Of a DNA stretch of 64,000 nucleotides, positions 28,550 through 58,249 are shown piece after piece. The first letter of the stretch is position 1. Every line of letters starts with the position of its first letter. The DNA comes from Simmondsia chinensis (Eukaryota > Streptophyta > Magnoliopsida > Caryophyllales > Simmondsiaceae). The stretch is taken from contig JAGTTD010000001.1 of the NCBI GenBank assembly GCA_018398585.1, positions 14,200,501 through 14,264,500 of the forward strand, read 5' to 3'. The position numbers and the translations under genes are program-made. The notes beneath the pieces are model-generated. The model searched no databases. It saw nothing but the letters and a program-made list of their open reading frames with translations, and was not told the DNA's origin.

Positions 28550-28555
28550 AAAACT

Positions 28556-35115: not shown

Positions 35116-35530
35116 TATTATGATTCAAGATGATTCTTGGATCATAAACTAGAATAGAAGAATTTGAGATGAGAATTAGAAGAATATAGATGAGAAGTAG
35201 AGAGAATTAGAGTTGAGAGAGAGAAATAGAATCAATATCATTTATCAATGAGTTAATTACAATGCAAGACAAGTTACTTACACTCCATTTAGTTACAATG
35301 AAAATATCTAGCAATACACTTCACCTAGACACTTCATCAACCACCAACTAACCTTCTTTCCAATACTAAACCGACAATCCCTCTCTTTCACCTATTGACT
35401 GACGGCTAATATACTTATTAGACTATTCTAATGACTTAAACTACTCTTTTACAATCTTGATAAGTACTCTTTTACAACCTTGATTTATTAGTACTCAATT
35501 CCATGTGCCCCATCTTTTAGAATCATGACA
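35116..35530 (-). repeat. 3' LTR of element D
   Basis: 415 bp, aligned with 44641-45040. On its right the minus strand reads caaagggagggagtat, a polypurine tract, directly before the LTR start. Confidence 0.85.
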
Positions 35531-35832
35531 ATACTCCCTCCCTTTGAAGATGCTTGTCCTCAAGAATCTTAGTAGAGAAGTTATAGTCTTGAAGAGCCCT
35601 TGATGTTGATGTTGTCTCAAGATGTTAAACGCCTGTTGTGGTTGACATTGAAGCTTCAACAATTGATCCTAACTTTGAAACTTGAAGTTGCTTATTGACT
35701 TGTATGTGTACTGCAATAACTTTAGATCAACAACTTTAGATCTCAATTCTACTCCTGTAGCTGCTCCAAAATCCATTTCCAATCAACTTCTGCACACCTA
35801 CAACAGCCTTGCTTTCATTTTCTGCAGCATGA

Positions 35833-36165
35833 TGTTAAGATCGAGATTAAATCTTGATCTTAACCTAAGAATTAAGAGAGTATGGGATGAGAAAGAAGGG
35901 AAGGAGATGAGAAAGTAGAGAGAATTAGATGAGAGAAAGAAGGTATAATCTCAAGAGAACAATTGATATTTTTCATTGAATGCCTCTTACAATCCACAAG
36001 CCACTATTTAAAAGAACAAATTACAAAAGCCACGACACACAAAACACCCGCCAAAAGCATCCGGCACCCTAACCGAACTAACAAAATTTGGCGCCAAAAC
36101 TAATTCAAACAAACAAGCTTACCCGCCTTATTACATTTTGAATTACAACTCGATAGAACATAACA
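35833..36165 (-). repeat. 3' LTR of element C
   Basis: 333 bp, TGTTAAGATC to ACATAACA. To its right atcccctcccctt is the complement of the polypurine tract. Confidence 0.9.
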
Positions 36166-36200
36166 ATCCCCTCCCCTTAGAATTTTCTTGTCCTCAAGAA

Positions 36201-39015
36201 TTAAAAGAAGGAAATTGGCTCAACAAAAAAAATTTTATCTTCCCAAGTGGTGAAAGATTTGTCCAAATTACACCAGCTTACTCGAACTTGCTGTCTGTTG
36301 GGCACATCGGTTCTTGCCTGCTTAACTTCTATCACTGCTGCTAGTTGTAGGATCAAGGAACCACTGGAACCCACCTCTGGAGGTACTGAAGAAGCCCCAT
36401 GTCCTCGTTTAACCTGCTTCTTAAGAAGTGAAACGTGAAAAACAGGGTGAATATATGAATCGGGTGGAAGCTCTAGCTTGTAAGCCACCTTGCCAATCCT
36501 TTCCAACACCTTGTAAGGTCCAAAGAACCTTGCACAAAGCTTGAAATTCTTCCTTACAGCTGTTGTAGATTGCCTATAAGGTTGTAGTTTCAAATATACC
36601 ATATCACCCACTTCAAAATTTCTGTCCTCTCTTGCGGTCTGCGTACCACTTCATCCGGGCCTGGGCCTGACTGAGATTATGATTTAAGAGCTGCATAAGA
36701 TGTTTCCTTTGCTATGACAATTCAGTCACCTCAACCACTTGTGTCTCCACTCCTTACAACAATAATGGATTGGGTGGATCATACCCATACAATGCCTTGA
36801 AAGGTGTTGTGCCTAAAGAAGCATGGAAATGGGTATTATACCAAAATTCCGCCAATGAGAGCCACCTACCCCACACCTTAGGATGGCTAAATACCATACT
36901 TCTAAGGTATTGCTCAATGCATTGATTGACCCTCTTAGTTCGACCGTTCTCGGTTTGAGGATGGTAAGATGAGCTAAGGGCCAAAGTTGTTCCTAAAAGA
37001 CCAAACAACTCCTTCCAAAAGCGACTTGTAAAGAGCTTGTCCCTATCTGAGATTATCAAGGAACACACGAGCCAACTTCTCTGCAGTCACCGGTCGAGCT
37101 AAAGCCATGAAATGACCAAATTTGGTGAACCGATCTACTACTACCCAGATCACCTCTTTCCCTTCTGATTTAGGCAATCCCTCAATGAAATCCATGCTTA
37201 TATGCTGCCATATACCCTCCGGAATAGGTAAGGGTTGGAGGAGACCTTGGTATCTATGATCACCAAGTTTAGTTTGTTGACAAACCTCACAGCCTTGCAC
37301 AAAATCAGACACTTCCCTCTTCATACCGGCCCAATTGAAGTGAATCTTCACCCTTTGATACGTTCCCTCTATGCCTGAATGACCACCCTATGAAGAATCA
37401 TGAGCAGCACTGATAACCTGATGTCTAAGATCAGTAGAGATGCCAATGTACAGCTTTCCCTGGATTCGGATAATTCCTCAAGTAACGGACACACCTGCAC
37501 CAGTACCCAGATTGATCGCCTTGCTCACACTGGCAGCTGCTATACATTCTTGTGCAAAAGTATCATTCTCATAGGACTGATTTACTTCTTCCATCCAAGC
37601 AGGAGAAATCACAGAAATAGTCCCGAGAGAACCCTGCTCATAGTCCTCAAACCAGCGTGACAGTGCATTAGCTGCCATGTTTTCCTTTCCTTTCTTGTAC
37701 TCAATATCATAATCAAGCCCAAGCATCTTCATCAACCCTTTCCTCTCTATCCTTGTGAAAAATTTCTGCTCTAACAAATGCTTGAGACTTTGGTGATCTG
37801 TCTTGATGATAAAATGATGCCCATCCAAGTAGTGCCTCCACTTTTCCACCGCGAGCAAAATTGCAAGTTACTGTTTTTCATATGTGGAAAGTGCTTGATG
37901 TTTTGCACTCAAAGCCTGACTAAGATAAGCTATGGGCCTCCCTCCTTGTGACAAAACTGCCCCAACACCATTTCCATAAGCATCAGTTTCTAACACAAAG
38001 CTTGAAGTAAAATCGGGCATGGCCAAAACAGAAGCTTTGCACATTGCTGCCTTAAGAGCTTCAAAAGCATTCTGGGCTTCCTCCGACCATCTGAAGGCAT
38101 CTTTCTTCAACAAGTCTGTAAGTGCCTTGGCTATAGCTTCATACCCTGCTACAAACTTGCGGTAATACCCTATCAACCCCAAAAAACCCCTTAATTGCTT
38201 TAAGGTTACCGAAACAGGCCAATCTTTCATGGCTTGGACCTTTTAGGGGTCAGTGAAAACCGCATCACAAGAAATCACATGACCAAGGTACTCCAAATGA
38301 GTTTGAGCAAAAGAACATTTGGCCAACTTAGCATACAACTTGTGCTCACGCATGACCAAGAATACTTCCCTCAAATGCTTCAAATGCTCCTTGAATGTAG
38401 CACTGTAAATCAAGATGTCATCAAAGAAGACCAACACAAATTTCCTAAGAAATTGTTTGAAGTCATCATTCATAAGAGCTTGAAATGTTGCCGGTGCGTT
38501 TGTCAAGCCAAATGGCATGACTACAAACTCAAAGTGTCCATGATGAGTCCGGAATGCTGTCTTGTACACATCTTGCTCATCCACTCTAATTTGATGATAG
38601 CTTTGCCGTAGATCCAGCTTGGAAAAGATATGGGCTCCATACAACTCATCTAACAAATCATCTATAACTGGCATAGGAAACTTGTCCTTGACAGTCATAG
38701 CATTAAGCTGTCTATAATCAACACACATTCGAGTCGTGCCATCCTTTTTTTTTTGACAAGAATAACCGGGGAAGCAAAGGGGCTGTGACTAGGCTATATG
38801 AAGTTGGTCTTGATCAAATCATCAACTTGCTTCTCAATTTCCGACCTCTGAGCATGTGGATATCTATATGGCCTAAGCCTCGCAGGTTCTGCATCACCTT
38901 TGAGGGGGATAACATGGTCTAAACTCCTCTTGGGAGGTAGAGACTTGGGTACCTCGAACAGATCCTCAAACTCATTGATCAAAGCCTGCACTTCTAGTTC
39001 AGTAATGCACACCAA
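36201..39015 (-). pseudogene. RT, RNase H, integrase of chromovirus C
   Basis: Open pieces: 39015-38794 (RT N-terminus, KRSLDHVIPLKGDAEPARLR), 38728-38243 (RT palm with [24 protein letters not shown] and an intact FFDDILIY catalytic box), 38230-37868 ([12 protein letters not shown], RNase H start), 37858-37478 (RNase H end; ADALSR-type site reads ANALSRW), 37351-37043 (integrase finger CEVCQQTKLG and core MDFIEGLPKSEG), 37068-36754 (IISDRDKLF; NGRTKRVNQCIEQ, with Lys in place of the catalytic Glu), and 36611-36201 (integrase C-terminus and chromo-like [15 protein letters not shown]). Stops and frameshifts separate the pieces. Confidence 0.88.
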
Positions 39016-39044
39016 TTCAGTAGGAGCTATACCAAATAGCTGAC

Positions 39045-41018
39045 CTACCCATTGGAATGAACATTTCTTGAATCCTTCATCCTGCTCCCTTTCATGACTT
39101 GCAATTGGGCTTGTTTTGCTATACCTTGCAAACTCACTTTTGATCCTTGTATTTCAAAGGAAACCGTGAGGTTAGCAAAATCAAACAACACCGGGTTGTA
39201 AGTTCTCATCCAATCGACCCCAAGCACCATATCACACCCTCCCAAAGGAAGGATTCTAAAGTCATAACTGAACTTGCGGTCCTGCATTACCCAATTGAAC
39301 CCATGGCATTTGTTTTGAGTTATTGCAGATTTCCCATCAGCCACGGTAATAGCGAGGAGATGAGTTTTATTCACTTCATGACCCACTTTCTTAACCACTT
39401 TAGGATCAACAAAACTATGAGTACTACCACTGTCAATAAGGATGATGATAGACTTTTTACCTGCCTTTCCTCTGATTCGGATCGTGCTGTGGGCACCATT
39501 TCCAGTCAAAGCTTTCATTGAAATTTCCACAGCAGCATCATCTAGGCTTTCCTCGAGGTCCTGATCTGATTCAGCCCCATCACCCTCAATTTCCTCGTCA
39601 TCAAAATGTTCTCCAGCACTAACCCCTTCAGTAGACATAAGAAATTTTGGACTACACCTGTGGCCAAACTGAGAAGGTTGATTACAACGGTAACACAACC
39701 TCTGCTGCTGCTTATCATCTGATCTGTTGGCAGAGATCTGGCAGACCCTTGCTGTTGTTTGGAGCCGCTACTGCGAGGTCTGGAAGCATCACTTGAAGAC
39801 AGAATTGTTGATTTATAAAGCTTGGCTTTGGCATAAGCCACAGACAAGGTTGTTGGATCAACGGCTTTAACCAAGTTTTTCACCTTTGGCTTCAAACCAC
39901 TTATAAAAGCCGAAACATAATACAACTCAGAGGCCTGAATTTCAGTTATAATGCTGGGCCTAGAGATTCTCAAACCTGGTCATATAATCTCTCACAGATG
40001 TCTCCTGTTTCACCTTATTAAATTTATCCACAATATCACTATCATCCTCATCACTATACCGATCACAATTCTTTTGCAAATTCAATCCATGTGAGGGAGG
40101 AATTACTCTTCATCAAACTATAAAACCACACTTCATGATCACCAAGAAGGTATACAACCGCGATTTATACCTTTTCTGAATCATCAATATGGTAGAAGTG
40201 GAAGTAACGTTCACACCTCCTCAGCCAAGAATGAGGTTGCTTCCCATCAAAGGCATCAATCTGCACCCGAGGCTGTCTTTGGCCACTAATTCTACTATTG
40301 GTTGTCTCCTCATTACTGCCAGAGCATTGTTGATACCAATCATTAGGTGGTCTATCAATATGATCCACATTCAGTCCCCTAGGCCTGTGTGTATCCTCAA
40401 CTTTAGTAGCTCGCACACTAGGTCTTGCATTACAATTTGAAGGTCGAGACATCACATGCTCACTGTGACCCTGCCTATCAGTCACCTCATTCTCATGGTT
40501 TCGATCTGGAGCTCTCATATCAACACCAGGATTAACCACTGGAGCGGGAACATTCTGTCTTATTTCATCTGGAGACCTAATTTGTTGATTTGTTCAAAGT
40601 GCGCTAGCCGGCAACAAAGGTTCTGGAACAACAGGAGGATTTGGCCTCATAACTTGCTCTCGAATCTCTGTTAACTTCACTTCTAGCAGCTGCCTTTGCT
40701 GATCGAACAGCTGATTGGACCTCTCCTCCAATTCTTGTGATTGTCGCGAGACCTGATCAACAATCTTAGCCTCTACCTGCTGAACGCGCTGATCGATCCT
40801 CACCTCAATTTGCTGAGGTAATGATTCAGTGAGAGCTTGCTTGAATTGAGCAAGCATTGTCACACTAGCTTACTGTCCAATTGAGCATTTGTAACCAAGT
40901 CTCGTCCTGCTGCATCACTACTGCCAACAACCTCAGCATAGGAAGACTTAGCAGCTGCCCTCGCAGCTACTGATTTGGTGGTAACACCACCGATCAAGGC
41001 AATTTCATTTGAATCCAT
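39045..41018 (-). pseudogene. Gag and protease of chromovirus C
   Basis: The start is placed at the ATG at 41018 (MDSNEIALIGGVTTKSVAA); the longer open frame to 41051 would overlap the primer binding site. Next come a coiled-coil stretch (40863-40594, QVEAKIVDQVSRQSQELEER), the gag core (40539-40165, with FDGKQPHSWLRRCERYFHFY), a second gag part (39973-39542), the knuckle CYRCNQPSQFGHRC near 39690, and the protease IIILIDSGSTHSFVD at about 39460-39410. Gag is broken by several frameshifts. The protease part (39698-39045) is open. Confidence 0.87.
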
Positions 41019-41038
41019 TAATTTGAAAGCCAAACGAG

Positions 41039-41050
41039 GCTCTGATACCA
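41039..41050 (-). promoter_or_regulatory. Primer binding site of element C
   Basis: Minus strand TGGTATCAGAGC, exact Met type, two bases from the LTR. Confidence 0.9.
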
Positions 41051-41052
41051 AT

Positions 41053-41385
41053 TGTTAAGATCGAGATTAAATCTTGATCTTAACCTAAGAATTAAGAGAG
41101 TAAGGGATGAGAAAGAAGGGAAGGAGATGAGAAAATAGAGAGAATTGGATGAGAGAAAGAAGGTTTAATCTCAAGAGATTAATTGATATTTTTCTTTGAA
41201 TGCATCTTCCAATCCACAAGCCACTATTTAAACGAACAAATTACAAAAGCCACGACACACAAAACACCTGCCAAAAGCAGCAGGCACCCTAACCGAACTA
41301 ACAGAATTTGGCGCCAAAACTAATTCAAACAAACGAGCTTACCCGCCTTAATACTTTTTGAATTACAACTCGATAGAACATAACA
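41053..41385 (-). repeat. 5' LTR of element C
   Basis: 333 bp. It starts with a 9-bp perfect hairpin stem (GTTAAGATC / GATCTTAAC). Confidence 0.9.
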
Positions 41386-41667
41386 CATGATTTGAGAAAA
41401 GCTTGCAATTCTCCTCCCATTTGAGAGGCTTCACTGCAAATTTCCTACTATTGTTCATCAAGGCGTGAATAAACTTGAGGCTTTGGTGATTTTCACAGGC
41501 TTGCATATCAGTCTCTAACTTCTTCGTCATGTCTTTCCAATTTACTGCAGCAATAACAGAACAACAGATTCTAAAACCAAATAACTTTCAGCACACAATA
41601 GTTCCTCTTCATGTCTTTGCATTCCACATCTCTTACTGTCAGCAAACCACATAACTTCTGATGAAAC

Positions 41668-41670
<3 letters not shown>

Positions 41671-41706
<36 letters not shown>
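41671..41706. repeat. (AT)18 microsatellite
   Basis: An uninterrupted AT dinucleotide run in the 3' part of element D. Confidence 0.9.
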
Positions 41707-41709
<3 letters not shown>

Positions 41710-41865
41710 TCAGGAATGCTCTTAATCTCATAGTTAGCTCTTCATAAATTCAGCTTATTACTTACTGTCGAATTATCTAGTAGCTGTATTCTCCTCACAA
41801 TCTTTTTCAAGGTGATCTTGTTGCTTGCAAAATGAGTTAGATGCTTTACCCAACTTATCTACTTA

Positions 41866-42726
41866 CTATTGGAGAAAAAGCCAAAGGAATTGAGGAGGTC
41901 TTACATTGGCTTGGACCCTTGGAAGATGCCCTTTACCCTTAATTCGTTTCACACTAACACCTAGCTCCTGTTCTAATAGCTCTGGTAGTTCAGTATCCGA
42001 AGCTAACAAAATTAGCTTGCATTGACATTTTAGTCCAAACCTGAACTCTTGATTGCCACTATATACCATCCATTAAGCCTTTCTCTACTTGTTTCTCACT
42101 ATGAAGCCAGCTTTGAGCTCAATTCTTCCACTCCTTGGGCTCTAAGGATGACGTTGATCAACCAAAGTGTTTTCCAACACTACTTCTCTACTGAATTCTT
42201 CCCTATTGAATTTGAGAATTTGCTCCATTATTCGTGGGTCAAGTGGCCAATTGAAAGTGTTCATAGAAGAATAAACACCAGCTCTACTTAATTGAGCTTG
42301 CCATTGGACCTGATCTAGCCCAATTCTCAGCTGAATTAGAGCATCTCCTTGCACTACAATAAGATCAGACCACTTCTCTGTTGAGTTTGCTTGCACTGCT
42401 ACAATATTAGCTTTACCTCTTACTGATTTTGTATCATTACTCATTGAATTCCACCTCTTCCTTGCTAATTTCATTGTCCTTTTGATCCATGAACAAGCCC
42501 CAAGTCTATCAATTGACATAAACACCACTTTGCGCTGCTTCAACTTCATATTCTTGAACATGATAAAATTTTCGAGAATCACTTTATTTGACTTAAGAAG
42601 AAGAAAATCTAGAGGTCTTCCTTTGTAGACCAAGATTGGCTTGATCCATGCTCTTAATTTCTGGCTTGAAATGCACTTCTTGCGACTTAAGTGAAGGACC
42701 AAATGGATCTCAGAACTTTGCTGCAA
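41866..42726 (-). CDS. Unrecognised ORFs in element D
   Basis: A 194-codon frame (42726-42142) and a 67-codon frame (42069-41866) encode basic proteins (KRTMKLARKRWNS; LDPRIMEQILKFNREEFSRE) without any motif I can place. They occupy the position of pol but show no RT, RNase H or integrase signature. They could be decayed coding or captured sequence. Confidence 0.3.
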
Positions 42727-42846
42727 TGTGAGCTTTAATCACAATTTCCCGATGCTCAAAACTTCAATGGACACTTGCACTTTCTCTGCTACAACAATTG
42801 GAAGTTCTACGTTCACCATATGCTATTGATCTTGCCTCCTTAAAGA

Positions 42847-43830
42847 CTAAATCGCTTCCTTGAGCTGAGTTTTCATATCAACTCTTGATTCCACCAATGC
42901 AACATTTGATTGCACCAAAGGATATTTAAGTACAGCAGGTTGAGATATTGCTTGATCAAACTTATCTTGATTTTGCAAGTCTTGCGGCTGAATTGGTATA
43001 AATTCCACTACTATGTCATTCTTCTTTCTTGGATCTTCATTTCTAAACCTTTCACAATTCTCAATCCAAGAATGAGGTTGTTGTTCATCAAAGAGCTCGA
43101 TTTCCTCCCTAAATAGTCTTGTTTTCAAACAATTGACATTGCGCACCACTTTTCCCGGATCATGAGGTCTCAATTGAACCTGATTTGTAAATGTGAAATC
43201 AACCTTGGACCTTATTGTTATATCATTTACTTGTAGCAATGAAGGATCAAGCACATGTTGTACTGCTACTATATCAATATCATCTTGAATTTTCAATTCA
43301 TGTTGCTGCTATGCCAATTCTACCTGATCCACTGAGTGGAATGTTGCATCATTCATCTGATGTGCTGCTGCAGCTTCCAGATTCAAGCTGATTCCACCAT
43401 TACCGATCATGTTTTGCTCAAATTCTTGCCCAATTCTCTGTTGCGAGTGTTGATTAACTCCCCAAGTAACATTAAGTTCCTCCTTAGCTTGACAATTAGT
43501 AGGTCGTATCACCTCAAGCTCTCCTTCCATATCATTACACATCTTGAGGTAGTTTATGTGTAAAACACAACATTCATCATATATGTTTCTCCCGTGTAAT
43601 GAATTGAAGGCTAAGTCGGCACTCCTTCTCGTGTAATAGCTAATGTGAGCTGTAACCTCAAAAATGGAAGATGAGACCACCTTGATACTTTCAAGAGGAC
43701 CATAAGGACAAAAATACTTGATAAAGAATATCTTCAACTATACAGTAAAGAGGTTTCGAGATTTTGATTAAAAGTCTAGCATCATTGGAAGATTTATCTT
43801 GAATCGAAGCTGGATTAAACCAATGTAGCT
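42847..43830 (-). pseudogene. Gag of element D: PTB-type RRM plus truncated gag
   Basis: Read across one frameshift near 43735, the N-terminus gives a full RRM of about 78 residues: LLIKISKPLYCIVEDILYQV, then CPYGPLESIKVVSSS, then VTAHISYYTRRSADLAFNSL and HGRNIYDECCVLHINY. The signature HGRNIYDxCCxLxI matches RRMs of plant polypyrimidine-tract-binding proteins, which bind pyrimidine-rich RNA. After a linker and a stop comes a gag block (FDEQQPHSWIENCERF) related to the gags of B and C, which lack the RRM. There is no zinc knuckle. The RRM may replace nucleocapsid RNA binding; that is inference. Confidence 0.78.
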
Positions 43831-44626
43831 TGTATATTGTGACATTTTGACAACACCTTCTATGTGTAATACTTGAAGTTCACTTCTTCACTTTAAAATC
43901 AGATTTGAACCTTTGAATTCAGTCCTAAACAAAAAAGCTTCCTCGCATTATCCTGAATATGTGCAATTAGTAGTGTTCAATATGTGGCCAGTTGATTTGA
44001 GTGCAATTTCAGTTGGATTGATTTCACTATGTCACAAGGTCATAAAAGAATGTACTAGAATCCAGTGAGATCAAGTCAATTTAACTAACTAATCTAGATA
44101 GCAGCAGTTTAGGACAAGAATAACTACTGAGCTTGATTAGTTTAATTTCGGCAGCTCCAACTGATTCAGCAGCTTGATCAAAGGATGAGCGAATTTAGCT
44201 AACAAGATCTCAAGAGTGCAACTTGATTCTAGATAAATTCAATAGGTTCATTATGTAATCAACTAAATTGAATCCAATTCCAGCTTGATCGATGATTTAA
44301 GTTCATAAGATCACAAGAGTCAGCTATAGCACATAGTAACAACAACCTTTTGAATTGAAATCTTGATCAAACTTAACATGAACATAGAACTTGAAATCAA
44401 TGTAGCACTGACTGAAGAATCTGGACAATTTAGCACAGTATTTTGATCCAACGCAAGCTGAACAATAGAACCTAGATTAAATACAGCATGAACTGAAAGT
44501 CAGAACAATTTAAGCATAATTTTCTTGATCAACACAACCTGATTAAGAATTTGATATCAATTAACTTGATCTAATGCTTTGCAATCAAATTGAACTTAAT
44601 CAACTCAATCGGAAGCAAATTCAAAA

Positions 44627-44638
44627 GCTCTAATACTA
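44627..44638 (-). promoter_or_regulatory. Primer binding site of element D, Met type with 2 changes
   Basis: The plus strand gctctaatacta against the standard gctctgatacca, two bases from the LTR. Confidence 0.75.
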
Positions 44639-44640
44639 AT

Positions 44641-45040
44641 TGTTATGATTCAAGATGATTCTTGGATCATAAACTAGGATAGAAGAATTTGAGAAGAGAA
44701 AGAAGGGAAATCAAGATGAGAATTTGAAGAACATAGATGAGAAGTAGAGAGAATTAGAGTTGAGAGAGAGAAATTGAATCAATATTATTTATCAATGAGT
44801 TGTTACAATGCAAGACAAGCTACTTATACTCCTCTAGACACTTCATCCAGCACTTCATCAGCCACCAACTGACCTTCCTTCCAATACTAAACCGACAATC
44901 CCTCTCTTTCACCTATTGACTAACGGTTAATGTACTTATTAGACTATTCTAATGGCTTAAACTACTCTTTTACAACCTTGATTACAATCTTGACTTATTA
45001 GTACTCAATTCCATGTGACCCATCTTCTACAATCATGACA
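44641..45040 (-). repeat. 5' LTR of element D
   Basis: 400 bp. The first ~33 bases form an imperfect hairpin (TTATGATTCAAGA with TCTTGGATCATAA). Confidence 0.85.
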
Positions 45041-45045
45041 TGGTC

Positions 45046-46196
45046 TATTTTTATAGTCCTTCTGAAGAAAAGGTGTTTGTAAGTGCAAATTCTAGATATT
45101 TGGAAGAGGATTTTGTAATAGACTACAAAAGAAAAAGCAGAGTAATGTTAGAGAAATTGAGAGATATTGAAACTATTCCTCAACAGCTAGAGACATCTCG
45201 AGGCATCATGGATGTATTAGATACACCTACATATAGAACCGAGAATGTTCCAGGTATATAAGAGCCTAGGCGTAGTGGGAGGATTGTTAGGGCACCTGAT
45301 AGATTCATGGCTGGAGCCTTAGTGGTTGACCGTGACATTGAGGATGCTGACCGGTGGGTCTTACTAATGAAATCTGAGATAGAATCCATGTACCCTAATT
45401 AGGTTTGGGAACTTGTAGAGGCGCCGGAGGTATTAAACCTATTGGATATAAATGGGTCTACAAGAGGAAGAGAGGAGTGGACGGGAAGGTAGAGACCTTC
45501 AAATTAGACTGGTTGCTAAGGGTTTTACCCAAAAGGAAGCTATCGATTATGATGAGACCTTCTCACCAGTGGCCATGTTAAAATCCATTAGGACACTCCT
45601 ACCCATTGTAGCTCATTAAGACTACGAGATTTAGCAAATGGATGTCAAAACAGCTTTTTTAAATGGTCGTCTTGGAGAAGAAATTTATATGGCGAAATCA
45701 GACGGTTTCATTAGCAAAAATCAGGGGCATATGGTATGCAAACTGAAGATATCCATTCATGGGCTAAAAAAAGCATCATGCTCATGGAATATTAGATTTA
45801 ACGAAGCAATCAAGTCCTATGGGTTTGAGCAATTGGTTGAAGAACCATGCGTGAATAAGTGAAATCATGAGAAAGTAGTGGTTTTCTTAGTGTTATATGT
45901 GGTTGAAATAGTAATAATTAGGAATGATGTAGGTGTCTTATTAGCTGTAAAGATTTGGCTGTCTGGTCAGTTCAATATGAAGGACCTAGGAGAAGCCAAC
46001 TATATTCTTGGGATTAAGCTTTTGTGAGATCATAAGAGTAGGATATTGGGTTTGTCTCAGGCCACTTATATTGGAAAGATGTTGTCAAGGTATCACATGG
46101 TGGACTCTAAGAAGAGGTTATTACCTTTTTGGCATTGAGTCCCTCTTTATTTACAGCGGTGTCCTAAGACACCTCAAGAGGATGAGCAGATGAGGT
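45046..46196 (+). pseudogene. copia RT of element E, first part
   Basis: 45046-45261 encodes the end of integrase (VYFYSPSEEKVFVSANSRYL). The RT follows with stops: MDVKTAFLNGRLGEEIYMAK at 45638 and HGLKKASCSWNIRFNEAIKS at about 45760. The catalytic box near 45893 reads LYVVEIVII where LYVDDILII is expected, so both aspartates are lost. Then GQFNMKDLGEANYILGIK at about 45970. The frame is cut by element F. Confidence 0.87.
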
Positions 46197-46740
46197 TGTC
46201 ACAATCCTAAGATTCGTGACTTGGTTTTGGATAGGAAATTGAAAGAAAATTTCAGAATTTGAGATGAGAAGAGAATGATTTAGAATTTAGATGAGAAAAG
46301 AAGTTAGAATTGAATGTCCATCATACAACAATAGTCGTAGATGTTTCTTCCATTAAGCCATTTAAGTGCACTCTCCGTGTCTTTTCTTGAATAAAAGGTC
46401 ACAATAGCTTCAACATTCAAGGAAGTTGTTGGAATGATTTCAATTTCATAAATTCGACCATAGGGAGAGAAGAGTTGGTTGAGGAAACTTGTGGTGACAG
46501 GATAGAGAAGATTTGAAATCTTGACAACAAGTGTAGACTCCCAATCTTGTCTTGCAGACATGATGAACCCGATTTTTTTTTTTTTAAATTAATAAGAAAG
46601 TAGCAATTTTTTTTTTTTTTAAATTCGAAAATGAGATCCTCGATCTCAAGAGAACGAAAACGTAAAGGATAGAGCCTTCAACTGGAAGATGGCTCTGATA
46701 CCACTTTGGTTAGGACAAGGTTACGGTCAAGGATCGTAAC
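46197..46740 (-). repeat. LTR of element F, left copy
   Basis: 544 bp, with primer-binding 12-mer at 46691-46702 and the RRM ORF at 46561-46304. The U5-like tail (tttctcatc.. phrases) resembles that of the solo LTR at 60621-61152. Confidence 0.78.
46304..46561 (-). CDS. PTB-type RRM protein, 85 aa, in left LTR of F
   Basis: A complete ORF that is essentially one RNA-recognition motif. The RNP2-like strand is LVVKISNLLYPVTTSFLNQL, followed by FSPYGRIYEIEIIPTTS, the RNP1-like strand VEAIVTFYSRKDTESALKWL and the tail NGRNIYDYCCMMDIQF. YPVT, FSPYG and GRNIYDxCC are hallmarks of RRMs of polypyrimidine-tract-binding proteins, which lack aromatic RNP1 residues and bind pyrimidine-rich RNA. The ATG follows the primer-binding sequence by about 130 nt. 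It differs from the other copy at six residues, and both are open, so decay is recent or constrained. Expression is unproven. Confidence 0.8.
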   Translation of the reverse strand: MSARQDWESTLVVKISNLLYPVTTSFLNQLFSPYGRIYEIEIIPTTSLNVEAIVTFYSRKDTESALKWLNGRNIYDYCCMMDIQF

Positions 46741-47137
46741 AAACCCTTACCCTTGAAAGCATCCTTGTCCTCAAGGATGTCATGTGGTTTGGTCTCCTTG
46801 TGCCAATTCCGGTTCTTGGAAACCGCTCCCATATCCTTGTTTTGACCTTGATCTTTTCTGGCTTGAGTTGCGCAGCCTCTTGCCTTGCATCATAAGGACT
46901 GTCAACAGGTGGTTGCTGTCCACTGGTCACGGTAGTGATAACGTAAGGCTGGGGACTTCCTTTCATCTTCGGTGCTACCAATATTACGTCCACTGTTTCT
47001 TCAATGATATCAATGTCACTGTCCTCATCAATGTCATCGATGTCCTCAAGAGTCATGATGTCAACATCGAGATCATCTTCAGGTTCAAGTGATTCGTATG
47101 CTACAGCTGGACTTGGCTCGGCTATCTCTTCGAACAT
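46727..47137 (-). CDS. Acidic 136-codon ORF in the internal part of F
   Basis: Starts MFEEIAEPSPAVAYESLEPE and has a very acidic core (DIDDIDEDSDIDIIEETVDV), then a basic tail (KIKVKTRIWERFP, TRRPNHMTSLRTRML). It runs through the polypurine tract to the LTR edge. An upstream in-frame stretch (VHILQFYCDFLKGLGKS) may extend it. No family recognised; the last third is probably non-coding DNA read through. Confidence 0.4.
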   Translation of the reverse strand: MFEEIAEPSPAVAYESLEPEDDLDVDIMTLEDIDDIDEDSDIDIIEETVDVILVAPKMKGSPQPYVITTVTSGQQPPVDSPYDARQEAAQLKPEKIKVKTRIWERFPRTGIGTRRPNHMTSLRTRMLSRVRVCYDP

Positions 47138-47243
47138 GGATTTCCCAAGTCCTTTAAGGAAATCGCAATAAAATTGGAGGATGTGGACAAACCGGATGAA
47201 TCAACCATCATAGAGGAAACTGAAGGCAACCTTGATGAGGAAG

Positions 47244-47789
47244 TGGACACAGTCCTAAGATTCGTGACTTGGTTTTGGATAGGACATTGAAAGATAATTT
47301 CAGAATTTGAGATGAGAAGAGAATGATTTAGAATTTAGATGAGAAAAGAAGTTAGAATTGAATGTCCATCATACAACAATAGTCATAGATGTTCCTTTCA
47401 TTTAGCCATTTAAGTGCACTCTCCGCGTCTTTTCTTGAATAAAAGGTCACAATAGCTTCAACATTCAAGGAAGTTGTTGTGATGATTTCAATTTCATAAA
47501 TCCGACCATAGGGAGAGAAGAGTTGGTTGAGGACACTCGTGGTAACAGGATAGAGAAGATTTGAAATCTTGACAACAAGTGTAGACTCCCAATCTTGTCT
47601 TGTAGCCATGTTGAACGGGATTTTTTTTTAAAATCAATAAGAACGCAGCAAAAATTACAAAAAAAAAATCAAAAATGAGATCCTCGATCTCAAGAGATCA
47701 AAAACGTAAAGGATTGATTGAGCCTCCGATTGAAAGATGGCTCTGATACCACTTTGGTTAGTATAAGGTCACGGTCAAGGATCGTGATA
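47244..47789 (-). repeat. LTR of element F, right copy
   Basis: 546 bp, with primer-binding 12-mer at 47743-47754 and the RRM ORF at 47609-47352. Its termini are eroded (tggacac, gtgata). Confidence 0.77.
47352..47609 (-). CDS. PTB-type RRM protein, 85 aa, in right LTR of F
   Basis: Same length and motif order as the copy at 46304-46561. The differences are the second and third residues, F/V after TTS, P/T in EIIx, T/A in RKDx and G/E before RNIYD. The glutamate replaces a glycine that is normally kept in the GRNIYD motif, which may weaken the fold. This is the 5' LTR copy, the one a transcript from the element would carry in full. Confidence 0.8.
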   Translation of the reverse strand: MATRQDWESTLVVKISNLLYPVTTSVLNQLFSPYGRIYEIEIITTTSLNVEAIVTFYSRKDAESALKWLNERNIYDYCCMMDIQF

Positions 47790-48337
47790 GAGGTTATTAA
47801 CTTTTAGGCATGGAGTCCCTCTTTATTTAGAGCAGTGTACCATCTGTTTTGGCTGCGGGAAGCCTCATGTATGCTATGTTGTGCACGAGACCAGATATCT
47901 GCTATGCTGTTGGTATGGTGAGTAGATATCAGTCTAACCTAGGTTCGATGCACTGAGCAGTAGTAAAGCATATTCTCAAGTACTTGAGAAGGACTAAGGA
48001 TAATATGCTAATCTTTCATAGTGACAAACTAGTTCCAGGGGGCTATACTGATTTAGACTTTCAGTTAGATAGGGATACTAGATGTACGACATCTGGGTAT
48101 ATCTCTACCCTTGGCGGTGGAGCCATCAGTTGGAGGACTGTCAAGCAGTCTTGCATTGCTGACTCCACCATGGAGGATGAATATATTGCAGCTTCAGAAG
48201 TTGCAAAGGAGGCTTGTTAGCTTAGAAAGTACCTAAAGGATCTTACGGTTGTTAGAGTTGGTCTTACACCTATCACAGTCTTTTGTGATAACTCTGGTGC
48301 AGTGGCTAACTGTAAAGAACCTATAAGACACAAGACT
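47790..48337 (+). pseudogene. copia RT end and RNase H of element E
   Basis: Resumes with GSLMYAMLCTRPDICYAVGM at about 47860, then ILKYLRRTKDNMLIF. RNase H (47984-48220) has the DEDD-type residues around GGYTDLDFQLDRDTRCTTSG, GAISWRTVKQ and DEYIAASEVAKEAC. It ends VFCDNSGAVANCKEPIRHKT at the insertion of G. The first ~50 bases repeat 46115-46165 of the left flank. Confidence 0.86.
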
Positions 48338-48580: not shown

Positions 48581-49223
48581 GAATTCACTATTATTTCGAC
48601 TGCGTTATAAATAAAATAACGGGCTAATTTAGAAAGGGCCCATTAATAGTATTAGGGTTATATAATTTTATATATATAAGAGAGAAGAAAGATTTAAACC
48701 CTAGTTTCTCCTCCCCTCTTCCGATCTCCCAATCTCTCTCTCTCTCTCTAGCATCAATTGTCAATCGCGACTACTCTTCCTTGATAAGTTTTCAAAACTA
48801 ATTCATAATAGAAGTTCGGTTATTGAATTGGAAGATATTGAATGTAAGTATACCTCTTCCCCTACTTCTTTATAAAATGTGAAAAATTGCTTTACATAAT
48901 TTGATTTGTAAGATTATATTTTAAATGGTATATTAGCTTGCTAAAATAGGACGATGCATATTTGTTTGATTGATTATGTGATTACTATTCTTACAATTTG
49001 AAATTAATTGATTAATACGTTGATATTATGACGGAATATGTGAATTTTCGAAAGAATTATGTGCTTGATTGATTGTGTGTATGCTACTCTTATGATTTGG
49101 AATTATAGTGATTTATACATCGATTTGATGATGGAGTATGTGAATTGTTGAAAGAATTTGTACTTGTGATAATGCGAATGAAATTATTGTGAACTTGTTG
49201 AAGTTATATCGAATTTAACAAAT

Positions 49224-49700
49224 TTAATGAATTCTAAAAGGACATGTGTGGCCGATTAACTGAATTCCAAAAGAGCCTTTGTGGCCAATGAATTAAATTC
49301 GGGAAGAGCCTATGTGGCCGATGAATATAATGAATTTTAAAAGGGCCCGTGTCACCGACGATTTAAATGTATTCTAAAAGGGCGTGTGTTGCCGACGAAT
49401 TGAATGCATTCTAAAAGGGCGTGTGTCGCCGACGAATTGAATGCATTCTAAAAGGGCGTGTGTCGACGACGAATTGATTGCATTCAAAAAGGGTTTGTGT
49501 CGACGACGAATTGAATGCATTCTAAAAGGGTGTGTGTCGCCGATAAATTGAATGCATTCTAAAAGGGCGTGTATCGCCGGCGAATTGAATGTATTCTAAA
49601 CGGGCATGTGTCGTTGATAAATTGAATGCATTCTAAAAGAGGGTGTCGCTAACGAATTGAAAGCATTGTAAAAAAAAGCATGTCGTTGATGAATTTAAGG
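49224..49700 (+). repeat. ~37-bp minisatellite, about 12 copies, in LTR G
   Basis: Unit gaattgaatgcattctaaaa gggcgtgtgtcgccgac. Central copies (49370-49560) are nearly identical and outer copies progressively diverged, the usual pattern of array growth by unequal exchange. Confidence 0.87.
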
Positions 49701-51858: not shown

Positions 51859-52280
51859 TGTTAGCTTCCCAAAATTAATTTGAAAATCTAACCTTGTAGA
51901 AGAGAGTTTGAGATGAGAAAAGAAGGGAAGGGGATGAGAAAATAGGGAAAGGAGATGAGAATTAGAGAATTTTCCTTAGGAATAAGATTTCATTTAATTG
52001 GATAATCCAAATACACTTTAATCACTCAATTTTATATAGGAAATCAGATCACAAAAACCTCACTGAAGTTCTCGCCTAATCCCCTGCGGTGTAACTGCAT
52101 TTCCTGCCCAAAACTGTAACTAACTTTGCACAGGACCTCGGTGTGCACTGCTGATACTTGGTGCCTAAAAATCTATTTTAACCGTGCTCTTTTAATTGTT
52201 ATTACATCATATAGACTCTAATTAAAAGTAATACTAAGAAATTAAAATGCATTACAAGTAAAATTTATTAATTCGTAACC
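51859..52280 (-). repeat. 3' LTR of element B
   Basis: 422 bp. The final base is c instead of a beside the polypurine tract. It starts with an imperfect hairpin (GTTAGCTTCC with GAAAATCTAAC). Confidence 0.9.
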
Positions 52281-52309
52281 TTCCCTTCCCCTTGAGACAC
52301 TTCTTGTCC

Positions 52310-53104
52310 TCAAGAAGTGAAGCCCGGAAATTGACTCTTCAAGAAAGTGTAGTCCTCCCAAGTTGTAAAGTCCTCTTTTAAGTTGCTCCAAGTGACCAAC
52401 ACCTCTTGAATTTTCTTGTCATTGAGCTGCAGCGTTCTCTTGGATCTGGTAGAGCTCGGGTACTGCAGTAGCAGCCCATTAGCTTTAGCAATTGGAGGAT
52501 CTTGAACACAATCAGCACCTCTCTTGACCTGTTTTTTAAGTAGGGATACATGAAACACGGGATGAATGTAAGAATGCGAAGGTAAGTCAAGTTTATATGC
52601 GACATTGCCAATTTTCTCTAAGATCTTGTACGGGCCAAAGAAACGAGCACACAACTTGACATTGAGTCTGACAGCCACGTATGATTGTCTATATGGTTGT
52701 AATTTGAGGTAGACCATGTCCCCAACATCATAGTTCTTGTCTACCCTCTTCTTGTCTGCATAATACTTCACTTGAGCCCGAGCTTGTTGGAGATTGTCCC
52801 TAAGCGACTGCGTGATCTGTCTCCTCTGCTGCACCATTTCGGTTGCTGCAGAATCAGCTGCTTTTGGTTGTTGTATCATTATAGGAGAAGGTGGAGAGTA
52901 GCCATATAATGCTTGGAAGGGTGAAGTGCCAATGGTTGTGTGGAAGTGTGTATTGAACCAAAATTCGGCTAAGGAAAGCCAACGGTTCCACTATTTGGGC
53001 CTTGCGAAGACCATACTCCGAAGATATTGCTCTACACATTGGTTGACTCGTTCGGTTTGACCATTCGTTTGAGGATGATAGGAAGAACTAAGAGCCAACG
53101 TCGT
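52310..53104 (-). pseudogene. Integrase C-terminus and chromo-like end of B
   Basis: Continues with YHPQTNGQTERVNQCVEQYL, one stop near 52995, then 52879-52310 open (189 aa): [54 protein letters not shown] and the terminal VTWSNLKEDFTTWEDYTFLK. The last resembles the end of a chromodomain as in chromoviruses, read by family knowledge. Confidence 0.87.
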
Positions 53105-54355
53105 TCACATTAGCTTGAACAATTCTCTCCAAAAAGTGCTTGTGAAGATTTTGTCTCGGTCCGACACAATGGATTGAGGCAACCCATGTAGCTTATAAAT
53201 GTTGTCAAAGAAAAGCCTTGTCAACTTTTCAACAGTAACATGTTGAACAAGGGCAATAAAATGACTATATTTGGTGAAACGATCCACCACGACCCATATG
53301 ACCTCCTTGCCTTCGGACTTCGGTAGTCCCTCGATGAAGTCCATGCTAATATGAACCCAAGCTCCGTCCGGAATAGGGAGAGGTTGAAGAAGTCCTTTGT
53401 ATTGAGGATCTCCCAATTTCGTTTGTTGACATACTTCACAAGACTTCACATAGTCGTTCACATCTTTTTTCATGCTCGGCCAAGTAAAATATGCTTTCAT
53501 TCGTTGATAAGTGCCTTCCACACCCTCGTGACCTCCCAAAGCAGCGTCGTGTGAGGCTTGGATGACCTGTTTTCTCAAGTCAGGAGCAGAACTGACATAA
53601 AGTTTGTCTTGGACCCGCAACAGCCCATTTTGAACTGTCAGCTCTCGGTGTTTTGCAGTAGTTTTTGCGTCGGGTTTGAGCACTGCAACAGCCAGCTTTT
53701 CACGAGCAAATGGATCTTCCTCGTAGGAATTGTGTAGCTCTTCGACCCAAGAAGGAATTACCACTTGAATGGCTGAGCATGAGCTTGAAACAGTGTCCTC
53801 AAAAAGCCTTGACAGTGCATCTGGAGCTGCGTTTTCTTTGCCACTTCTATATTCGAAGTCGTAATCAAGGCCTAACATTTTCATCAAGCCTTTCTTTTGA
53901 ATTTTTGACACTATTTTCTGCTCAAGGAGATATTTTAGGCTTTGGTGATCTGTCCGAATGGTGAATTTGTGACCTTCCAAGTAGTGCCTCCATTTCTCTA
54001 CGGTTAAGAGAATCGCAAGGTACTCCTTCTCATAAGTCGACATTGCCTGATGCTTGGGACTTAGAGCTTGACTTAGATATGCAATAGGCCTTCCTCTTTG
54101 AGAGAGAACAACCCCAATACCAGTACCGCTTGCATCGGTCTCCAAAACGAAGCTTTCGGTGAAGTTCGGCATTGTCAAGACCGGTGCTGCACACATAGCG
54201 GTTTTGAGGGCTTCAAATGCTGCTTGAGACTTCTCGTTCCACCCAAAAGCATCCTTCTTCAAGAGCTCCGTTAAAGGTTTGGCAATGGAACCATAACCTT
54301 TAATGAATTTTTGGTGATATCCGGTCAACCCCAAGAAACCACGCAATTGCTTCAA
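53105..54355 (-). pseudogene. RT end, RNase H and integrase core of chromovirus B (416 aa)
   Basis: [17 protein letters not shown] opens the piece (the real frame runs in from upstream across two stops). RNase H has [38 protein letters not shown] and RTDHQSLKYLLEQ. Integrase has the zinc finger (ASHDAALGGHEG to CEVCQQTKLG) and catalytic Asp residues in ISMDFIEGLPKSEG and IVSDRDKIF. It stops at LFKLM, just before TTLALSSSYHPQTNGQTERV, which holds the catalytic Glu after the stop. Confidence 0.9.
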
Positions 54356-54463
54356 AGTGATCGGGATTTGCCATTCTTACATTGCTCGGATCTTGTTAGG
54401 ATCAGTAGCTACGCCCTCTGATGAGATGATATGGCCCAAATATTCAAACCTCCTTTGAGCAAA

Positions 54464-56563
54464 CTACTTGGACAATTTTGCAAAAAACCAGTGTTGTCGC
54501 ATCAAGATGAACACTTGCCGGAGGGGTGTGAGGTGAGCTTCATATGTGGGACTGTAAATCAGTATGTCATCAAAGAAAACCAGCACTGACATCCTCAGAT
54601 AAGGCTTCAAGACATCATTCATAGCCGCTTGGAAGGTGGCCGGAGCATTTGTTAAACCAAACGGCATAACAACGAACTCGAAATGGCCATGGTGAGTTTG
54701 AAAAGCGGTTTTGTAAAAATCTGATTCGAAGACTTGGATCTGATGATATCCTTGCCTTAAGTCCAACTTGGAAAAGAAACACGCCCCATGAAGCTCGTCA
54801 AGCAAGTCATCTATGACCGGAATCAGAAACTTGTCATTTACGGTCAAAGCATTCAAACGGCGGTAATCGATGCACATACGGCCTGTCCCATCCTTCTTCT
54901 TTACAAGGATCACGGGAGAGGCAAAAGGACTTTGGCTCGGTCTAATGAAGCTTAAATGAAGAAGCTCCTCCACTTGTCTTTCTATTTCGGCCTTTTGGCC
55001 ATGAGGATACCGGTATGGCCTAATTTTGAACGGATCGGCATCTCCTCGTAAGGGTATAGTATGATCCACACTCCTTTGGGGCGGAAGACTCTTTGGCTCA
55101 TCAAAGATGTCCCCAAAGTCATTGATATAAGACCGTACATCAGGAAGTAGGTCCTGCTGCACCGAAACCGACCCAATCATGAACAATTGTCCAATCCATT
55201 GGATCGCCTTCTTTTTAATTCCGCTTTGCACTCCCTTAGCTTCAATCAGTTTGAGCTGAGCTTGCTCGGACATGCCTTGCAAGGATACCTTGACACCACG
55301 AACCTCGAATGCCACGGTCATTTTGTCAAAATCAAATACAACCGGGTTGAAGGTTCTCATCCAATCGACCCCGAGCACCATATCGCAACCACCCAAAGGA
55401 ATAACTCTATAGTCAAAAGTGAATTGATGGTTTTGCATAGACCATGGGAATGCTATGCACTTATTTTGAGTTGTTAAGGAGTTACCATCAGCCACCATTA
55501 CCGCCAAAGGGTGTGTTTTCGTCACTTCGTGCTTGACTTTCTTAATCAAATTCGGGTCAACGAAACTGTGAGTGCTCCCACTATCAACGAGAATAATAAT
55601 GGAATGTTTTCTAGCCCATCCCTTGATTTTGATTGTGTTATGAGCTCCACTTCCGATTAGAGCTTTCATAGAAATCTCGACCTCATCTTCGCTTGAATTT
55701 CCTTGAGAAATGCACTCGGTTTCATCTACTTCTACATCAGAATCGGTACTGCCATTTTCAACAGGGACTCGGACTCCTTTTGCATACATAAGTGCTTGTG
55801 ATTTGCACCTATGTCCGGGCTGATACGGTTGGTTGCAATGAAAACAAAGCCTTGCTGAAATTCTGTCACTGTTTTTACTGCTGAAGCTTTTGTTCTGCTG
55901 CTGTAGCTGTCTCGGTTTGCTGCTGGTGTGCTGCTTCCCTTTGTCATATGAAGGGACTTGAGTTGCTTCTATCAACTTTGCCTTATTGTAAGCGCTTGAC
56001 AAAGTCTTAGGACCAATGGCTTTCACCATATTTTTGATCCTAGGCTTAAGGCCACTCACAAAGCAAGAGACATAGTAGGATTCAGCATCCTCGGGAGCAA
56101 TGGCCAGGACTGACATCAAATTGGCTCTCAAATTCTCAAATCTAAGCATGTATTCTCTCACACTTGATTTTTGGACCAACTTGTTGAAGTTATCCACAAC
56201 ATCCGTTGATTCTCCTTCACCATACCGTTCACACATCTCTTCTACGAAAAGGCCCCAAGAAAGATGTGGTTTGCTTTTCAACAAACTATAGTACCAAACC
56301 TCATGATCACCATGAAGATGGACTGCGGCCAGCTGGAGCTTCTCCTCCTCAGGTACATTGTAATATAAGAAGTATCGATCACACCTCCTAAGCCAAGATT
56401 CCGGTTGTTTTCCATCAAATGGATCGATTTCTACCTTTGGCTGCCTGTAAGAGCCACTCCTACCCCCAATTGTGTTGTCATTGGTCACAGTTCTATGCTG
56501 ATATGGGCAATCAGGTGGTCTATTAAAATGCTCGAACACCTCATTTGTAACATTCTGGTGCAT
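54464..56563 (-). pseudogene. Gag-protease-RT ORF of chromovirus B (699 aa)
   Basis: The longest open frame in the window. Gag core (IDPFDGKQPESWLRRCDRYF at about residues 46-65), knuckle CFHCNQPYQPGHRC (about 245-258), protease SIIILVDSGSTHSFVD (about 322-337) with GGCDMVLGVDWM, RT with [20 protein letters not shown] (about 563-582), [16 protein letters not shown] and an intact catalytic FFDDILIYS. It ends at a premature TAG inside RT (FAKLSK stop), after which 54355-53105 continues in the same reading order. It functions in particle assembly and reverse transcription if the stop is bypassed or was recent. Confidence 0.9.
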
Positions 56564-56724
56564 AACAGAAGCATTCGGCCTGTTGTTTTGTTCTGAATTT
56601 TCAGCATATGTTCGGTAATTAACAAGTCCAGAAGCACGATCTGGATCTTTTACATTAACTTCAGGTCAAATAGATGGATTTGCAGCTGATCTAATGTTAA
56701 TTGATGGTCCTACACCAGGTTGCA

Positions 56725-57090
56725 TTATAGGAGATTTACCTCGGGTGCCAACACTCCGTCAGATCTGTCTGTATTTGCTTGTGGCTGATCTGCACTTGTT
56801 TGCTGCTGATCTATTTCAACTGATTTGTGTATCTGGCTTGCGGGCTTAAGGATGGCTTCAACACTCGATTCACCTTGCTTGTTAACTTGATCTTGCAAGT
56901 GCTCAATTTTTTCCTCAATTTGTTGCAAACGGTCCTGAACTTTTGCATCCTTTGCATCTTTATCCAACAATAATGCCAGAATTTGATCCATCTTGTGATT
57001 AATACCTTGTTGTAACTCGTGAAGGTCTTCCTTAGTTGCATTTTGAGGTCCGGTCGTTGTATTTCCAGTAACCGCAGCTATGAAATCCAT
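56725..57090 (-). pseudogene. Gag N-terminus of chromovirus B
   Basis: The first ATG after the primer binding site (MDFIAAVTGNTTTGPQNATK). Mostly coiled coil (KDAKVQDRLQQIEEKIEHLQ). It ends at a stop; the rest of gag is in another frame (56563 onward, with VNVKDPDRASGLVNYRTYAE recognisable upstream of that start), so one frameshift separates them. Confidence 0.8.
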
Positions 57091-57224
57091 ATTTGAACCG
57101 GTTGCATTGGCTCCACCAGCTCCAGATCAGATCTGGTTCTAACACCATCGACCATGAATTTTTTTGTTGTTTTCTATTTTTTTTTTTTTTGGCTAGCTTA
57201 ATCAATTAAGGGATTGTTAAACCA

Positions 57225-57236
57225 GCTCTGATATCA
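57225..57236 (-). promoter_or_regulatory. Primer binding site of element B
   Basis: Minus strand TGATATCAGAGC, one change from the Met-type site, two bases from the LTR. Confidence 0.85.
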
Positions 57237-57238
57237 AT

Positions 57239-57659
57239 TGTTAGCTTCCTAAAATTAATTTGGAAATCTAACCTTGTAGAAGAGAGTTTGAGATGAGAAA
57301 AGAAGGGAAGGGGATGACAAAATAGAGAAAGGAGATGAGAATTAGAGAATTTTCCTTAGGAATAAGATTTCATTTAATTGGATAATCCAAATACACTTTA
57401 ATCACTCAATTTTATACAAGAAATCAGATCACAAAAACCTCACTGAATTCCCGCCTAATCCCCTGCGGTGTAACTGCATTTCACGCCCAACACTGTAACT
57501 AACTTTGCACAGGACCTCGATGTGGACTGCTGATATTTGGTGCCTAAAAATCTATTTTAACCGTGCTCTTTTAATTGTTATTACATCATATAAACTCTAA
57601 TTAAAAGTAATACTAAGAAATTAAAATGCATTACAAGTAAAATTTATTAATTCGTAACA
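57239..57659 (-). repeat. 5' LTR of element B
   Basis: 421 bp, intact TG..CA ends, same hairpin (GTTAGCTTCC with GGAAATCTAAC). Confidence 0.9.
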
Positions 57660-58249
57660 ATCCACTCCAAACGGTGTGGAGCAACCAGAACTTGCCGCTC
57701 GAGTATTTTAGGTAAAATGACGTTGTTTTGATTGTCTGTTATTCATCATACATCAAAATTCCTGGCATTTTTTTGGTCCAGTAGCTTGTTGTAAATAGAG
57801 GTCCTGGAATTAAGGTTTTGCGTTAATTAAAAATTAAATAATTTTCTGAGAGTGTTGACTTTCAGAGAATTAAAAGAAGAAAGCTTTCCATTGAAATTTT
57901 TTCTCTAGTTCAATATTTTTTGGAGCCTACACTTTGGGTGTTCAAAGGAGATTGCATAGAAGGTCTTGCGGTCCCAGTGATTTCTTGGAGCCACATTGTC
58001 CCCTCCATCTAGGTATTTTTCTTTCTTATCTTTTTCTTTCTTTGTTTCGCTTTTCTATTTGTTTACAGTATATATTATTCTAGTTATTTTTCATGTTATT
58101 ATTATGAATGTATTAGAGTAGAGGCTTGTAGATTTAAAATTAGGAATTTTGAATCGTTCTGCTGCATTAGTTATATTTAATTTAGGGAATATTTTTGAAA
58201 TACACCATAATAAGGGCATGTTCCTAGATACTGACGAATCTCCTTTGCT

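Follow-up and report, generated by a model that had tools for sequence, protein, structure and literature searches.

A PTB-like RNA-recognition motif, apparently kept by selection, in a large family of enzyme-less LTR retrotransposons of plants

Long terminal repeat (LTR) retrotransposons are thought to need the zinc knuckle of Gag, or a like domain, to choose their RNA, and non-autonomous ones to depend solely on signals in cis. The stretch of the Simmondsia chinensis genome analyzed here (64,000 nucleotides of contig JAGTTD010000001.1, forward-strand positions 14,200,501 to 14,264,500; hereafter the window) contains two LTR elements, D and F, each with an RNA-recognition motif (RRM) that is assigned by sequence to the type of polypyrimidine-tract-binding protein (PTB) and hnRNP L. 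They represent a large plant LTR family without enzymes of its own, the RRM of which was apparently taken once from a host PTB and appears to be kept by selection. If this is true, a captured host RRM under selection means that the parasite brings its own RNA-binding protein, and the RRM elements offer a natural test of which Gag function is replaceable.

The closest described systems each share one side of this arrangement. TR-GAG elements, like the RRM elements read, are non-autonomous LTR elements of plants that are small, encode a single protein and lack pol; the TR-GAG protein is Gag, whereas no Gag domain was found in ten open reading frames (ORFs) of the RRM family. Long interspersed nuclear elements (LINEs) of the plant BNR type reportedly have an RRM in ORF1, and some Jockey ORF1s are said to hold RRMs. 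These are also retroelements with an RRM in the first protein, but they are non-LTR elements, whereas the present family has a PTB-RRM2-like domain in pol-less LTR elements.

Captured host sequence is known from other transposable elements. Turmoil-1 of Caenorhabditis elegans carries in its terminal repeats an RRM from host rsp-2 (PMC2572040), and the RRM of F also lies within terminal repeats. Turmoil-1 is described as a single element that combines inverted terminal repeats with fragments from two host sources, unlike the RRM family, which consists of LTR elements with many copies, several subfamilies and apparent selection on the protein. In maize Bs1 and similar plant LTR elements, host sequence is carried in the sense direction; such transduced genes are described as present in one or a few copies (PMC7264820), whereas the RRM family apparently goes back to one capture that spread into many copies and subfamilies and was conserved. 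Bdelloid rotifer LTR elements resemble the family in having captured functional domains common to many elements. Their ORF3s encode enzymes and env-like proteins, and they have both gag and pol (PMC5408684). In passages of the review on transduced genes, which treats additional ORFs of plant LTR elements, no RRM-bearing LTR elements are described (PMC7264820), and in passages of a paper on Beta chromoviruses the sole occurrence of "RRM" is in the title of a cited LINE study (PMC3605345). The preliminary description of the window knew of no plant LTR family of this kind, and none was found in the open-licence full-text literature searched.

RRM elements in the window and in the host genome

Both RRM ORFs of F (F1 and F2) match Pfam RRM_8 with scores far above the curated cut-off, and the C-terminal half of the D RRM also exceeds it (Table 1), in agreement with the PTB-type motif proposed earlier for both elements. 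The top PDB sequence match of the F RRM is PTBP1 (3zzy, its RRM2; E = 1.6e-9). An AlphaFold2 model of F1, built on three sequences and with a predicted local distance difference test (pLDDT) value of 79, has structure matches that are mostly RRM folds. The highest template-modeling (TM) scores to the query belong to PTB RRM2 (0.66, 0.65) and hnRNP L (0.65, 0.64), hits that rank only 2, 5, 21 and 42 by E-value. A protein database search with F2 alone gave no match and one with A1 gave two proteins; the viral contigs searched gave none.

F is rearranged. Its repeat copies (46189-46737 and 47237-47785) are 89.5% identical and hold one RRM ORF each, so that the RRM lies inside the terminal repeats and not between them. 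Comparison with relatives reveals that each terminal repeat is made up of an LTR start, a primer site, a leader, the RRM and a stretch resembling an LTR end, and that the center of F is the C-terminal tail of the family protein with one piece inverted. The element lies within a decayed copia pol (RVT_2) at 45019-48220 (+), and by eye about 41-47 bp of copia sequence near its ends is present on both sides, outside the 5-bp target-site duplication (TSD).

The LTRs of D are 81% identical and its TSD matches at 4 of 5 bp. A frame change breaks its RRM, which is complete only across two frames; the N-terminal half has no Pfam match by itself. It had been claimed that this RRM stands ahead of a gag fragment related to elements B and C of the window. 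What survives of this is a single stretch of 20-25 residues in the tail, 55% identical to C gag over 22 aa and 50% to B gag over 20 aa (52% over 25 aa in a second comparison with C); Pfam detects no gag domain in the pieces of D. Of 29 other D loci, 7 contain this stretch, one only in part. The long D tail was also considered as Gag itself, and this was rejected for want of a profile match.

The preliminary description had proposed a profile search, which returned RRM_8 as above, and a count of genomic copies. In the host assembly (831 Mb, 35 contigs), an exact degenerate pattern coding for GRNIYDxCC occurs at 340 sites, and its reversed control at none. The positions of about the first 100 were listed; of the two read, L090 is a host PTB exon and L091 an element-like RRM. 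With the F RRM as query, all 150 matches scored, the window's two included, have E <= 1e-20 (the best 150 of 2311 candidates). The D RRM yields 156 matches, the window's included, and those listed have E <= 1.3e-29 (the best 150 of 2379 candidates); a plant PTB-like protein, P0001, brings up further subfamilies among the best 150 of 2238.

A sample of 79 loci, window F included, was taken as stretches of about 3.2 kb (78 loci) or 6 kb (L089). The RRM is surrounded by a direct-repeat pair in 37 of them: 20 of 28 F-type, 16 of 20 in a third set and 1 of 29 D-type loci, part of the F-type pairs being short or belonging to tandem arrays. The 42 loci without a pair are window F, 8 F-type, 28 D-type and 4 third-set loci, and L089, which does have a pair that the calling script missed; many D elements probably exceed the 3.2-kb stretches. 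Ten of the 37 combine an exact 5-bp TSD, TG..CA ends and a tRNA-Met primer site at a length of 2.1-3.1 kb. The primer site lies at most 30 bp from the end of the 5' repeat in 25 of the 37, and a purine run such as AAGGGGAAG precedes the 3' repeat in many. Pair identity ranges from 74.7 to 98.9% (median 92.2) and is at least 95% in 11, which speaks for movement in the recent past. By their TG..CA ends, TSDs, primer sites and polypurine tracts, the RRM elements are LTR retrotransposons.

Several copies have a noteworthy arrangement. Five RRM units about 1.71 kb apart, with frames of 354-448 aa in which no stops are listed, form a tandem array at C8:11638848-11646665, and further RRM clusters are found at C9:11.97-11.99M and C2:8.76M. 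In loci L026, L028, L032, L033 and L036, the TGGTATCAGAGC primer site is present twice, at a spacing of exactly 42 bp. In a DNA search with the D-type LTR (the best 40 of 2086), three full-length pairs have start-to-start distances of 3.99, 4.34 and 10.2 kb; C2 also carries an array, and the spacing of partial matches is 2.9 kb on C9 and 12.9 kb on C7.

With respect to the encoded protein, the RRM begins within about 35 residues of the first Met in 36 of 37 RRM ORFs with an upstream Met (script listing; part of these ORFs are short or truncated). The frame of L089 begins in its LTR, and one 745-aa frame spans most of its interior. Pfam finds RRM_8 in ten of ten family ORFs (180-722 aa), with a single RRM stretch in each, and no gag (Retrotrans_gag, Ty3_capsid), zinc-knuckle or pol family in these ten. 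In line with the preliminary description, the RRM elements read yielded no pol and, in particular, no reverse transcriptase. Because the ten ORFs contain no pol and the ten exact elements measure 2.1-3.1 kb, these short elements are non-autonomous. The tails are of two types, short (F and its kin; one part resembles, by eye, an acidic coiled coil) and long (D and its kin). The RRM ORF is stop-free in the matched stretch in 21 of 28 F-type, 15 of 20 third-set and 6 of 29 D-type loci.

Origin and retention of the RRM

In the host PTB gene at C4:28537900-28538899 (locus L090), which we take to be PTB3-like, RRM2 is divided by eye into three exons. The element RRMs share with it the RRM2-type domain and the GRNIYDxCC motif, but the host gene has introns in RRM2 and lacks a one-residue insertion found in the elements. 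Plant PTBs hold several RRMs, unlike the element ORFs with their single stretch. The element RRMs are intronless and continuous across both intron places, which points to spliced mRNA as their probable origin. On average, RRMs of the F type are 48% identical to host RRM2 (40-54), those of the D type 40% (36-46) and those of the third set 52% (44-58), compared with 45% between host RRM2 and human PTB. Separate recent fragments of host PTB genes, raised earlier as a contrary explanation, are not what is seen: identity to host RRM2 is 36-58%, and the element RRMs form families of their own.

The extra residue lies between SPYG and FQAL in 77 of 77 element rows of the alignment and in the Nepenthes gracilis protein P0002; host PTB, P0001 and human PTB have a gap there. 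The loop between the two motifs has 14 residues in 74 of the 77 rows as against 13, and three rows have 13 or 12 by way of other gaps. In a tree of 47 rows and 80 columns (3 of 84 rows dropped as gappy, 47 of the remaining 81 chosen, one host PTB paralogue), 43 genomic element RRMs and P0002 form one clade with host PTB outside (support 100/94); within it, the D clade has support 100/100 and the F clade 100/99, and P0002 and human PTB are on long branches. One clade, a one-residue insertion and the absence of introns fit one capture from a spliced mRNA better than two. The earlier view that the association is old or arose twice is thus upheld in its first half; two origins are disfavored by the tree, in which D and F fall in one element clade.

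Outside the host genome, the breadth of the family rests on one Nepenthes gracilis protein, Nepgr_024832, which falls in the element clade on a long branch. P0002 matches L075 beyond the RRM (41% over 127 aa). For plant annotation, this would mean that some PTB-like gene models are really element proteins. P0001 (source code lgn), a single-frame PTB RRM2-like protein of 145 aa, groups with host PTB and not with the elements.

The RRM appears to have been retained by selection while the elements spread. The ratio of non-synonymous to synonymous divergence (dN/dS) in the RRM, ordered by rising dS, is 0.59, 0.36 and 0.23 for F, 0.67, 0.38, 0.30 and 0.38 for D, and 0.39, 0.52, 0.34 and 0.25 for the third set. 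The copies behind these estimates were collected through protein similarity. When retrieval according to protein identity was built into a neutral simulation with one simple tree shape, the ratios were 0.97, 0.81 and 0.65; these higher values suggest that retrieval bias alone is not the explanation. Across subfamilies, the median dS of the RRM is 1.02 and dN/dS 0.335 (104 pairs with dS > 0.5). The tail of D has a median dN/dS of 0.62 as against 0.35 for the D RRM. At 0.2 changes per site, no more than 0.0015 of simulation runs left neutral frames of 264-360 codons without a stop.

A possible RNA-packaging role and other explanations

We lean slightly towards a reading in which non-autonomous Ty3-type LTR elements captured one RRM (RRM2) from the spliced mRNA of a PTB3-like host gene, joined to a fast-changing tail, and use it in packaging their RNA. 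The element RNA would be translated into the RRM protein, which may bind a CU-rich tract at the 5' end of the RNA, in R-U5 just upstream of the primer site. The tail, which by eye resembles an acidic coiled coil in the F type and includes the short gag-like stretch in one D subfamily, might self-associate or contact the Gag of an autonomous B/C-like Ty3 partner, and the ribonucleoprotein would then be packaged and copied by the enzymes of that partner. The RRM would thus take over the RNA selection done by the zinc knuckle in ordinary Gag, a plausible substitution that the preliminary description had already suggested.

Cis signals point to a partner of this kind. A stretch of the LEDK-coding CTTGAGGACAAG type precedes the 3' repeat in B, C, D and F and in 24 of 37 RRM loci. 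Together with the gag stretch of 20-25 aa, this shared 3' stretch suggests a link of the RRM elements to Ty3, and the enzyme donor is likely a B/C-like Ty3 element. Short LTR similarity to B occurs in 5 of the 37 RRM loci, and similarity to the LTR of C in none of them. D and those 25 of the 37 loci that have the primer site at the end of the LTR were tested for a CU-rich tract on the sense strand, and R-U5 contains one in all 26 (z 4.1-12.5 relative to mononucleotide shuffles); in the two window copies at 9442 and 7073 it is not clear (z 1.9 and 1.8). The tract was considered as an RRM-specific signal and rejected as such, being present in B and C. Shared in this way, it is consistent with an RRM-binding role and does not prove one; it could be a pre-existing feature that a PTB-like protein was able to exploit.

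Several observations weigh against a selected RRM with a packaging role. The CU-rich tract is equally strong in B and C (z 4.9), which have no RRM. In a family-LTR DNA search (the best 40 of 1017), ten LTR pairs or arrays were counted by eye, of which three overlap RRM protein matches listed and seven have none among those listed, so the RRM may be dispensable. With stops in the matched stretch of most copies, the D lineage may be defunct. At a dN/dS of 0.59-0.67, close copies come nearer to neutrality, and in a young F-long set the RRM values scatter, dN equaling or exceeding dS in several pairs with few changes. Of the codon changes between F1 and F2, 7 are synonymous and 6 non-synonymous, a near-neutral ratio such as two copies inside one insertion should show. 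Finally, the long D-type tail compared with B/C gag by hhalign has a probability near 0.

A broader claim, possible and put forward only tentatively, is that a nucleocapsid based on an RRM arose independently: a PTB-derived protein, furnished by a parasitic lineage of LTR elements in cis or in trans, would select CU-marked RNA for autonomous Ty3 particles and may also steer the packaging of the partner's RNA.

Rather doubtful is a PTB mimic that acts on the host cell or on element mRNA in splicing, export, stability or translation, or that contends with host PTB for transcripts of elements or of defence genes. PTB proteins function in splicing and translation, selection on the RRM is compatible with any protein role, and a tract in R-U5 would fall in the 5' leader, where translation factors work. 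Such a mimic leaves the differing tail types unexplained, and B and C have the same CU tract and no RRM.

The signs of decay and neutrality gathered above would suit a passenger: an early non-autonomous element would have acquired PTB mRNA by template switching, and the RRM would since have been a functionless hitchhiker, like many transduced genes of plants. Plant LTR elements are known to transduce genes (Bs1 and others; PMC7264820), some LTR relatives have no RRM among the matches listed, D copies are mostly broken and close pairs are near neutral. On the other hand, frames remain open up to 745 aa across the deep divergence seen between subfamilies (median RRM dS 1.02, dN/dS 0.335), and dN/dS lies under the neutral control; the frame of a passenger would not be expected to survive across several subfamilies, and this explanation is clearly unlikely.

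It is decidedly improbable that the RRM elements are wrecks of an unseen autonomous family with RRM, gag and pol. One LTR pair 7.3 kb apart (C31:32792556/32799866), one D-type pair 10.2 kb apart and the gag-like stretch in the D tail speak for it, but the ten exact elements measure just 2.1-3.1 kb and no pol family is found in the ten ORFs, within the short stretches read. The F-family pair (C31:32792556-32800444) is a candidate for a longer or nested element.

Scattered processed PTB copies, into or beside which LTR elements inserted by chance, would be intronless like the element RRMs, but this is scarcely credible, since the repeated LTR context rules against chance pseudogenes: an LTR and a primer site precede the RRM ORF at many separate insertion sites, of which ten have an exact TSD of their own, and the copies belong to a single clade marked by the extra residue.

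Elements B and C and other features of the window

Elements B and C had been called chromoviruses. By domain content they are Ty3-type; the chromodomain part of the name is putative. Pfam finds both Retrotrans_gag and Ty3_capsid in B, and neither in the broken gag pieces of C.

Table 1. Coordinates of elements B, C, D and F and of their parts in the window
Feature	Position	Strand	Evidence or remark
Element D, whole span, about 4.4 kb without nested element C	35116..45040	-	LTR pair; ends; TSD GACCA/GACTA
D 5' LTR, with CU-rich R-U5 tract	44641..45040	-	LTR pair
D degenerate Met primer-binding site ATTAGTATTAGAGC (family form TGGTATCAGAGC)	44627..44640	-	
D RRM, N-terminal half, other frame	43694..43879	-	Family RRM profile E 1.2e-8
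D RRM, C-terminal half and tail start	43312..43737	-	RRM_8 5e-8; family RRM profile 1.4e-29
Gag-like stretch of 22 aa in D tail	43045..43110	-	Similarity to gag of C and B
D tail (type II)	42145..42738	-	136 aa at 65% identity to element L089
D 3' cis stretch AGGACAAG...AAAGGGAGGGAG (polypurine tract)	35531..35560	-	Also in B and C
D 3' LTR	35116..35530	-	LTR pair
Element F, rearranged	46197..47789	-	TSD ACCTC at 46192-46196 and 47790-47794
F RRM ORF, 5' terminal repeat	47355..47627	-	Pfam RRM_8 3.3e-23
F RRM ORF, 3' terminal repeat	46307..46588	-	Pfam RRM_8 2.5e-21
F internal part, DNA of C-terminal tail of family protein (type I)	46715..47142	-	81-84% identical to L026/L032/L035
Inverted tail piece within F	47139..47249	+	Two pieces match L012, opposite strand, 87-91%
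Element C, Ty3-type by Pfam, nested in D, pol and gag broken	35833..41385	-	TSD TCATG
Element B, Ty3-type	51859..57668	-	Gag, protease, reverse transcriptase, RNase H and integrase by Pfam

The window also contains a short element-like pair at 7035-10040, with repeats 2.4 kb apart and about 90% identical and with primer sites at 9442 and 7073. Two large related regions, 18838-22121 and 28298-31513, are 77.6-84.9% identical; they are inverted in part and contain internal repeats of about 93 bp. A tandem array with an imperfect unit of 37 bp is situated at 49218-49683.

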